From a virus, in IMG/VR virus record IMGVR_UViG_3300044675_000763, positions 1 to 30,619 of that record: a stretch of 30,619 bases of DNA; one strand, given 5' to 3'. The translations under genes were made by a program, and so were the position numbers. Numbering within the stretch: the stretch's first letter is position 1; every line of letters begins with the position of its first letter. Under the pieces are notes generated by a model, which saw only the letters and a program-made list of their open reading frames with translations, was not told where the DNA came from and ran no database searches. Shown piece after piece: positions 6,033-7,406 of this stretch.

Positions 6033-6391
6033 CACAGCAGGAAATAGTAAAGGAATTGCAACATAGGGCAACACAGAAATATTTAATTTACCTGGCGCTG
6101 CAGGAAATTATGCTAGATAATTATGAAGACTGTAAATTCTTAAAGGATTACGATTTTTATATAACGACCAAGCATAAAAACCTGCTGGCGGATTTACGGC
6201 GAAACGCAGCTAAGGCGTTTAGATTTCTAGAGGGATACGACGAAGGCGAAAAGACTATAAAACAGTTTCACGAATTCGTTAAAATCTTTGAAGCTTTGCA
6301 CGAATCGATAGACAAAGGCGGCAGCTATTTTAGCGACTGCCTGGCAGCCATTGAACAAATTTTAAAACAAGATGCCCAGACAGAAAATTAG
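6029..6391 (+). CDS. Helical protein of unknown function (120 aa)
   Basis: A soluble, nearly all-helical protein (ATQKYLIYLALQEIMLDNY … RRNAAKAFRFLEGYDEGEKTIKQFHEF…) without recognised motifs. The start overlaps the previous stop (ATGA), and the gene overlaps the following HTH gene by 20 bases. Confidence 0.65.
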   Translation: MTQQEIVKELQHRATQKYLIYLALQEIMLDNYEDCKFLKDYDFYITTKHKNLLADLRRNAAKAFRFLEGYDEGEKTIKQFHEFVKIFEALHESIDKGGSYFSDCLAAIEQILKQDAQTEN

Positions 6392-6521
6392 CCAGGATAA
6401 ATTAGACCAAATGTTTGAACTTTGGCGCGACAGAAACAGCACAGCTACAATAGCTAGAAAATTAAGTGTGTCCTATACGTCAGTTTATCAAGAACTAAGG
6501 CGCCGTTATTTAGTAGGTTAA
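6372..6521 (+). CDS. Small helix-turn-helix protein (49 aa)
   Basis: The 49-codon frame starts inside the end of the preceding gene. The product is basic and contains one clear HTH of the resolvase/transposase type at about 22-45 (NSTATIARKLSVSYTSVYQE) ending in RRRY. It sits just before the promoter and structured leader of the replication initiator, so control of that promoter is an attractive but unproven idea. Confidence 0.6.
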   Translation: MPRQKISQDKLDQMFELWRDRNSTATIARKLSVSYTSVYQELRRRYLVG

Positions 6522-6533
6522 TTAGAAAAGTGT

Positions 6534-6541
6534 TATATTTG
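6534..6541 (+). promoter_or_regulatory. Promoter -7 box for the structured leader
   Basis: TATATTTG, an exact TAnnTTTG match, 13 bases after the HTH gene. A weak TTTA (6509-6512) lies 21 nt upstream. Transcription would begin at about 6546, immediately before the first hairpin of the leader RNA. Confidence 0.5.
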
Positions 6542-6545
6542 AATA

Positions 6546-6634
6546 TCAAATTATTTTTGAGGTAGGAGCCAAAAATAATTTCATAAAGGTTTACTAAACC
6601 TAGCCCGACAGACTCCTACCTGTTGGGCTTTTTT
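6546..6634 (+). ncRNA. Structured leader or small RNA with complementary loops, ending in a terminator
   Basis: Three hairpins fill this stretch. H1: AAATTATTTTTG (6548-6559) pairs perfectly with 6570-6581, 12 bp, loop AGGTAGGAGC. H2: AGGTTTA (6587-6593) with TAAACCT (6595-6601). H3: AGCCCGACAG (6602-6611) with CTGTTGGGCT (6620-6629), one G-U pair, loop ACTCCTAC, followed by a T-run. The H1 loop GTAGGAG (6562-6568) is perfectly complementary to the H3 loop CTCCTAC (6613-6619), which allows a 7-bp kissing interaction. It may be a free small RNA, or an attenuator for the initiator gene that starts 7 nt later. I do not recognise a known RNA family. Confidence 0.6.
6602..6634 (+). terminator. Strong intrinsic terminator before the initiator gene
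   Basis: A 10-bp stem (one G-U pair), AGCCCGACAG/CTGTTGGGCT, with an 8-nt loop and then TTTTT. The U-tract ends 7 nt before the ATG of the replication gene at 6642, and no promoter fits in between. Expression of that gene from the upstream promoter therefore requires read-through. Confidence 0.85.
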
Positions 6635-6641
6635 ATTTACT

Positions 6642-7406
6642 ATGAAAAAGGAAGCTTACTACTTTTCGCACGATTCTAACGCGAAAGATGACCCTAAAAT
6701 TCTCCAGCTTAGAATGGAAATGGGCTGGGAAGGTTACGGCTTATTCTGGGCCCTAATAGAACTGTTAAGAAATGAAACAGAGCATCGAATGCGAACGCAT
6801 TACAAAAGCATTGCATTCGCATTGCAAACGCATGAGGATAGCATAAAAAAAATAATTAACGACTTTGAATTATTCGAAACAGATAACGAATATTTTTGGT
6901 CTGAAAGCCTATTAAAGCGTATGGAATTGAAAGAAGAACGCTCAGAAAAGGCTAGAGAATCTGCCAAAAAACGCTGGAATCGCGATAATGATGCGAACGC
7001 AATGCGAACGCATAGCGAAGGCAATGCGGATGCAATGCAATTAAAGGAAAGGAAAGGAAAAGAAATTAAAGAAAATAAAGAAAAGGAAAGTAAATTAAAT
7101 GAGGATTCACATAATGCTATTTTTCGTGAATTATGGAATAATAGGATTTGGCTGGAAGGATTAGCCATTACCTGGAAGGCAGATTTAAAAGAAGTCCAAA
7201 ACCATTTAAATACCTTTAGGCAGGAATGCATTTTAAAAAGCGATTTAAAAGAAAACGAAAAGCTTGCAAAAGAGCATTTTTTTAACTGGGTAAAACGAGG
7301 CAACCCAATTCCAAAAAAAGAAAATTACAACGTTTTCGACGAAATTTATAACGACCTAATAAAAGAAAAAGAAAATCAAAAAAGCGATGAAAGACACGAT
7401 AATTAA
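6642..7406 (+). CDS. Replication initiator, DUF4373 (Lin1244/Lin1753-like) family
   Basis: 254 residues. The N-terminal ~90 residues (YYFSHDSNAKDDPKIL, MGWEGYGLFWALIELL) are the DUF4373/Lin1244-Lin1753 N-terminal winged-helix domain of DnaD-like phage replication proteins. A charged linker (about 100-160) carries AKKRW and a Lys/Glu-rich run, then a helical C-terminal domain. By family role it should bind the origin and recruit the host replisome, since no phage polymerase or helicase is present. The coding sequence contains two clusters of 11-bp iterons (6789-6833, 6991-7034) and a purine-rich A+T stretch, so it probably holds the origin, as lambda O does. It overlaps the next gene by 20 bases. 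Confidence 0.85.
   Translation: MKKEAYYFSHDSNAKDDPKILQLRMEMGWEGYGLFWALIELLRNETEHRMRTHYKSIAFALQTHEDSIKKIINDFELFETDNEYFWSESLLKRMELKEERSEKARESAKKRWNRDNDANAMRTHSEGNADAMQLKERKGKEIKENKEKESKLNEDSHNAIFRELWNNRIWLEGLAITWKADLKEVQNHLNTFRQECILKSDLKENEKLAKEHFFNWVKRGNPIPKKENYNVFDEIYNDLIKEKENQKSDERHDN
6789..6833 (+). repeat. Iteron cluster A inside the initiator gene
   Basis: Contains ATGCGAACGCAT (6789-6800), an inverted copy TGCATTCGCAT (6812-6822, complement of ATGCGAATGCA) and a diverged direct copy TTGCAAACGCA (6822-6832). The unit is shared with cluster B about 200 bases downstream. Each unit is itself nearly palindromic (ATGCG-AA-CGCAT). Confidence 0.65.
6991..7034 (+). repeat. Iteron cluster B: four tandem 11-bp units
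   Basis: Tandem units with exact 11-base period: ATGCGAACGCA at 6991 and 7002, a diverged TAGCGAAGGCA at 7013 (8 of 11) and ATGCGGATGCA at 7024 (9 of 11). Eleven bases is not a multiple of three, so the repetition is not explained by repeated amino acids, and it is close to one DNA helical turn, as expected for binding sites on one face of the helix. Confidence 0.7.

Follow-up and report, generated by a model that had tools for sequence, protein, structure and literature searches.

In many viruses of Flavobacteria-type bacteria from the sea and from fresh water, the replication genes are immediately preceded by a leader RNA in which the apical loop of a 5′ hairpin is complementary to the loop of an intrinsic-terminator-like hairpin. 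The leader was predicted in a virus record that carries terminase, portal and capsid genes (IMGVR_UViG_3300044675_000763; its whole stretch of 30,619 nucleotides is referred to here as the window), and the loop-complementary design is far more general than this one window. Rfam has no entry for this RNA family, which is frequently found at replication operons in Flavobacteria-type phages, cultured virulent phages included. Its probable role is to time the onset of viral DNA copying, and possibly to make that onset depend on which other viruses are present. Such a leader would mean that lytic phages regulate replication through RNA much as plasmids do, but with a single molecule serving as both antisense and target. 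It would also supply natural 7-nt loop pairs that are largely distinct, and would make testable whether co-infecting phages tell self from non-self by RNA.

The leader RNA in the window

The original prediction, made from the letters of the window, described three hairpins and a U-tract whose coordinates stand (Table 1), with the correction that the second hairpin (H2) was given 7 bp and folds with 6 bp and a 3-nt loop. The loops of the first hairpin (H1) and of the terminator are, as claimed, exact complements over 7 nt; in the window the match reaches 9 nt (AGGTAGGAG/CTCCTACCT), of which the central 7 alone are kept in relatives. The chance of such a match had been called small, and for at least 7 complementary nucleotides between random 10- and 8-nt loops it computes to P ~6e-4. 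The fold of the leader segment beats 200 of 200 dinucleotide shuffles (z −3.9). The terminator, one of two terminator-like sites within 1.4 kb, does adjoin the replication initiator gene, whose ATG at 6642 lies 7 nt past the U-tract, and this layout supports the further claim that expression of the initiator would require read-through of the predicted terminator.

Table 1. Features of the leader and replication genes in the window, followed by loop pairs of cultured phages
Feature	Position	Strand	Details
Bacteroidetes-type −7 promoter box (TAnnTTTG), TATATTTG	6534-6541	+	from sequence
Hairpin H1	6548-6559/6570-6581	+	12 bp, 10-nt loop 6560-6569; from fold
H1 loop core GTAGGAG, loop–loop partner 1	6562-6568	+	441/441 cells paired, 63 distinct sequences
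Small hairpin H2 in linker	6587-6601	+	6 bp, 3-nt loop; from fold
Intrinsic-terminator-like hairpin with U-tract	6602-6634	+	10 bp (6602-6611/6620-6629), 8-nt loop 6612-6619
Terminator loop core CTCCTAC, loop–loop partner 2	6613-6619	+	from covariation
U-tract	6630-6634	+	
Replication initiation protein (Lin1244_N PF14297; phrog_2562), first gene after the RNA	6642-7406	+	
Tandem ATGCGAACGCA-like repeats, 11-bp spacing, inside the initiator gene	6789-6843 and 6991-7045	+	A/G-rich DNA then follows
Cellulophaga phi19:3			CTCTCACA/TGTGAGAG, before replication genes
Olleya Harreka_1			GTGGTGG/CCACCAC, before replication genes
Flavobacterium phages lillamy9-1, tooticki9-1, stinky9-1, hattifnatt9-1, hemulen6-2			GTGAGACG/CGTCTCAC, RNA identical in all five
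Flavobacterium phage 11b			CGGGCAGG/CCTGCCCG, before replication genes
Flavobacterium phage elemoA			GTGAGATG/CATCTCAC, before replication genes

Loop complementarity in relatives retrieved by protein

It had been proposed that relatives whose loops change and lose complementarity would speak against the pairing. Five initiator proteins (those of the window, L092, L071, L096 and L109) served as queries into IMG/VR, and 191 distinct upstream regions were kept after dropping duplicates and matches lacking the N-terminus. A terminator-like hairpin lies at most 45 nt from the ATG in 139 of these 191, and in 130 of the 139 a perfect Watson–Crick partner of at least 7 nt for the terminator loop is found in the 75 nt upstream, compared with 1.6% of shuffled sequences. 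Every row was fetched by protein, blind to the RNA; as four of the five queries were picked from RNA-carrying loci, the retrieved set samples the relatives of the RNA. Among the nine sub-threshold regions, two hold a pair of 7–8 nt on inspection (L355, GTTCTCAC/GTGAGAAC; L418, GTCGCAT/ATGCGAC), four hold one of at least 7 nt by an MFE-based hairpin finder, which split some H1 loops (L300, L330, L398, L343), and L448, L455 and L456 appear to be loci that lack the RNA. Complementarity was thus kept here and in both data sets described below (87/87 members; 441/441 cells), and the protein-based test is free of the selection caveats that attach to the covariance model R1 and the alignment A4.

Covariation of loops and stems

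A pattern scan of IMG/VR, in which the outer loop bases were fixed and the middle three left free, returned 91 stretches. The middle triplets match in 81 loci, where ~1.4 would be expected by chance; the 10 loci without matching triplets look unrelated. R1, a model of the three hairpins, was built from matching-loop sequences with the loop–loop pairing itself left unmodelled, and the 7-bp complement is kept in all 87 family members that it aligns. Alignment A4 holds 73 of these rows (63 distinct), the 14 rows with a shorter H1 loop having been left out because they are out of register. All 441 cells of its loop–loop helix are paired, with 54 double compensatory changes and no G-U, while helices slid out of register as controls pair in 35–54% of cells. 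The loop letters change together between viruses, and the pairing therefore matters; the double compensatory changes bear out the original suggestion that the complementary apical loops are under selection.

The stems covary as well. Compensatory changes occur at 12 of 12 pairs in H1 (92% of cells paired), at three of the four modelled pairs in H2 (88% of cells paired) and at eight of ten pairs in the terminator stem. G-U pairs, absent from the loop–loop helix (A4 columns 25-31 with 82-88), are nevertheless frequent in the stems. The outer two loop–loop pairs at each end are invariant in type I, the architecture of the window, where the search pattern fixed them for part of the set. By eye, a C-A mismatch recurs at the tenth H1 pair in L004 and other RNAs of the GTGAGAG and GTGGTAG types, where the window has U-A.

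Promoter box and predicted transcription unit

The original prediction missed a TATATTTG box 6 nt upstream of the foot of H1. Within the 50 nt that precede the loop core, 115 of 178 relatives have the strict form of this box, TANNTTTG, and 163 of 178 a relaxed form; random windows of 50 nt drawn from these loci give 3.4%. In types I and II (type II is described below) the box, judged by its distance to the loop core, ends 5–10 nt short of H1, and the loop-to-loop spacing is 47–59 nt in type I and 52–56 nt in type II. We infer from the sequence that transcription starts at the foot of H1; box and terminator probably delimit a transcription unit of ~85–90 nt, doubling as the operon leader. An attenuator and a released small RNA had been put forward as alternatives; both readings survive as probably one and the same thing, because the unit from box to terminator is also the operon leader. 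A scan of 155 loci for promoters of the TANNTTTG type found no conserved one on the minus strand.

A 49-aa helix–turn–helix protein (6372-6521; weak HTH_7 and HTH_23 matches; phrog_11420) ends 12 nt before the promoter box. It is apparently kept in relatives, and could therefore regulate the leader promoter.

Alternative architectures and cultured phages

A second architecture, type II, precedes some relatives of the same initiator; its H1 has 6 bp and a loop of 14 nt, its terminator hairpin is longer and interrupted, and H2 is lacking. It swaps the strands of the pairing, the H1 loop carrying CTCACTAC, CTCTCGAC, CTTCTCAC or CTCCTTAC and the terminator loop the complement, as in the RNAs with CTCACTAC in H1 and GTAGTGAG in the terminator. 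A third form is seen in L412 (GTTGCAG/CTGCAAC) and L418, whose upstream flanks are near-identical. Strands, stems and loops differ between the architectures, and thus only the match is fixed.

The design is kept before the replication genes in five cultured lineages, namely 11b, elemo, lillamy, phi19:3 and Harreka (Table 1). When regions of ~5 kb from these phages are scanned for promoter plus design, the scan recovers the site ahead of the replication genes, and in one region also a second pair inside the terminator stem; in the 30.6-kb window it finds only the leader site, and in 796 kb of control sequence it gives six matches. No instance of the design turned up in the regions examined from Enterococcus EF62phi and Porphyromonas phage005a, in most of the genome of Nonlabens P12024L or in Riemerella CRP6. 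On this result, we reject the notion that it is a feature of all initiators with this fold or of all Bacteroidota phages.

The replication operon and a candidate origin

The RNA precedes initiators of varied kinds, including Lin1244_N, DUF6291, DnaD-like loader, replisome organizer and HTH_36 proteins. In L068, L086, L131, L141, L143 and L151 a small gene stands between RNA and initiator, so that the initiator ATG is ~130–560 nt away, and the pairing is kept; the target is therefore the head of the operon and not one start codon. Small genes lie exactly between the RNA and the replication gene in these six loci and in L104 and L127, that of L151 being an apparent HNH endonuclease by sequence, as if the junction acted as an insertion site for extra genes. 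Within the initiator gene of the window, the two blocks of ATGCGAACGCA-like repeats and the A/G-rich DNA that follows are likely to form a candidate origin of the lambda-O type.

Turnover of loop types

A tree built from 37 initiator genes of the window's family requires 17 changes among the five loop types, close to the mean of 20.8 for shuffled labels; along this tree the types turn over almost at random. Loop type differs in 46 of 60 pairs at 93–95% initiator identity and in none of 17 pairs above 98.5%. In two pairs, L005/L006 and L038/L041, nearly all of the difference lies in the segment running from H1 through the terminator, as an RNA cassette set within near-identical flanks. As isolated 7-mer duplexes, the loops pair with their own partners at a mean of −9.3 kcal/mol and across types at −2.7 kcal/mol, and a few cross pairs reach −8.5. 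This turnover is as expected of exchanged self-recognition specificities, for which reason we give weight to action between RNA molecules; it could also be neutral recombination at a short intergenic site.

Proposed mechanism and alternative explanations

The reading that we place first, and to which we assign about an even chance, is that the leader is a cis-encoded attenuator of transcription, placed at the head of the replication operon and serving also as a small RNA gene. Its components (expression, termination, kissing of the RNA, the sign of the effect and action in trans) are what we infer from the arrangement described above. Once transcription had begun at the foot of H1, this hairpin would fold first and show its 7-nt loop, and the next ~50 nt would form the terminator whose loop exactly complements it. 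The meeting of the loops would then decide between a stop, with release of an RNA of ~85–90 nt, and reading into the initiator and helicase genes, most transcripts being expected to stop. Most likely, capture of the emerging terminator loop by H1 in cis would lead to read-through, although this sign is a guess. The terminated RNA would carry both complementary loops and hence may act in cis and probably, on leaders of the same type, in trans; terminated RNAs of the same type would compete for the loops on nascent leaders and favour termination, the net result being a self-specific negative feedback on replication initiation. By a rough helix-geometry estimate, a straight stack of H1, the 7-bp kiss and the terminator stem would span ~80 angstrom, which strains the 20-nt linker with a folded H2, so for the loops to pair in cis the RNA would have to bend, or H2 or the A-U foot of H1 would have to open. 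A point against the feedback reading is that copy control meets no obvious need of a lytic phage.

A second and more tentative proposal, possible but clearly doubtful, makes the leader RNA a determinant of self-recognition in virulent phages, in the manner of incompatibility or superinfection. Each phage would make a short RNA that, through its two complementary loops, is antisense to itself; this RNA would shut the replication operon of a co-infecting phage of the same loop type and spare other types, and frequency-dependent selection would drive the exchange of loop-type cassettes.

The RNA might instead act solely in cis, the pairing setting a fixed or factor-dependent level of read-through and the terminated RNA being a by-product. 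Its constant place at the operon head, its single copy and the tight loop spacing of 47–59 nt agree with such an arrangement, which we nonetheless hold to be rather unlikely, since it leaves the frequent exchange of a few discrete loop types between near-identical phages unexplained, unless that exchange is neutral.

We regard as improbable an independent small RNA, merely located before the operon, that would act in trans on host or phage mRNAs and use the pairing for stability or dimerisation. Although the ~85–90-nt unit does possess its own promoter box and terminator, the loops are free to vary provided that each still matches the other, swapped strands included, which makes a fixed outside target read by the loops unlikely; moreover, placement before different kinds of initiator is conserved. 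Equally improbable, in our judgement, is a replication RNA as in ColE1 or lambda, whose transcript would prime or activate an origin in the initiator gene while the loops regulate the primer or transcription through the origin: iteron-like repeats do lie 150–400 nt downstream in that gene, but a strong predicted terminator separates the RNA from them, and extra genes intervene in some loci. Translational control, with the terminator hairpin by the ATG or an RNA in trans gating ribosomes as in IsrK, would suit the 7-nt distance in the window and is very improbable, being disfavoured by the loci with intervening genes, where RNA and pairing are kept at ~130–560 nt from the initiator ATG.

Comparison with known RNA regulators

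Close parallels to the attenuator reading come from plasmids. In pT181 attenuators, a 5′ sensing hairpin and an intrinsic terminator precede the initiator gene, a loop–loop contact decides the outcome and a cis anti-terminator is involved (PMC4878617). The phage leader shares, by sequence and fold, the 5′ hairpin and the intrinsic terminator before a replication initiator gene. However, pT181 uses a separate antisense RNA from the opposite strand, for which no conserved antisense promoter was seen here, whereas the phage leader holds both complementary loops in one RNA and the partner is the terminator loop itself.

Kissing loops also set the specificity of copy control, and in IncK plasmids one RNAI nucleotide changes compatibility (PMC10724649). 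As in the I-complex and ColE1 RNAs (RNAI with SLI, RNAI with RNAII), a few central loop bases would set specificity, and as in ColE1 RNAI/RNAII the loop–loop complementarity is conserved via compensatory changes; in those plasmids, though, antisense and target are separate transcripts, while here a leader of virulent phages carries a terminator. The likeness to ColE1 originally drawn is limited to loop specificity: no sign of an antisense RNA was seen, and towards a primer role the sequence offers nothing beyond the iteron-like repeats downstream.

Among phage RNAs, the CI RNA of immunity in satellite phage P4 is a small RNA that originates in a replication-operon leader and, by pairing with sequences of the leader, brings transcription to an early stop (PMC4825925). 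Both are replication-operon leader RNAs complementary to leader sequence, the complement lying here in the same RNA, but CI RNA is processed from its leader, pairs with the separate seqA and seqC, has no kissing terminator loop and belongs to different hosts. IsrK of Gifsy-1 is a terminated short RNA that shares one promoter with a read-through mRNA and acts in trans on it (PMC4825925), which resembles the two products proposed for the phage leader; unlike the latter, it activates translation of an antirepressor operon, and a sequence relation was not seen. By none of the tests run is the leader homologous to pT181, the kissing-loop copy-control RNAs, P4 CI or IsrK.

Occurrence in databases and host genomes

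That the RNA belongs to no recognised family was the initial impression, and an Rfam search upheld it, with nothing at the gathering cut-off in the window or in 12 relatives. The trpB motif (RF04312), a leader of Firmicutes and Fusobacteria linked to amino-acid genes (PMC11109978), likewise has a 5′ hairpin followed by an intrinsic terminator; it was rejected at 30.2 bits (E 0.009-0.017) against a gathering score of 59. Direct DNA search of a phage collection gave no homolog of the leader RNA, and no account of it emerged from our literature search; the article that describes the lillamy-group phages uses none of the words hairpin, terminator, promoter, noncoding and small RNA. The phage records searched held no credible second copy that could serve as a partner in trans. 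Three loci (L100, L114, L095) give weak R1 matches with complementary loops before genes that are not clear initiators, and are possibly outlying members or chance.

A host gene was rejected as the origin of the RNA, given that a pattern scan of a genome collection covering 84,980 species yielded one credible site, on a contig of an Ekhidna metagenome-assembled genome (MAG), and that an R1 search of 395 genomes of the same class added no further site. At this site (L168:5342-5442) the RNA precedes a 75-aa gene, an HTH_36 replication protein and an AAA+ loader-like protein, and we take the locus to belong to a phage or a mobile element whose host is one of the Bacteroidota.
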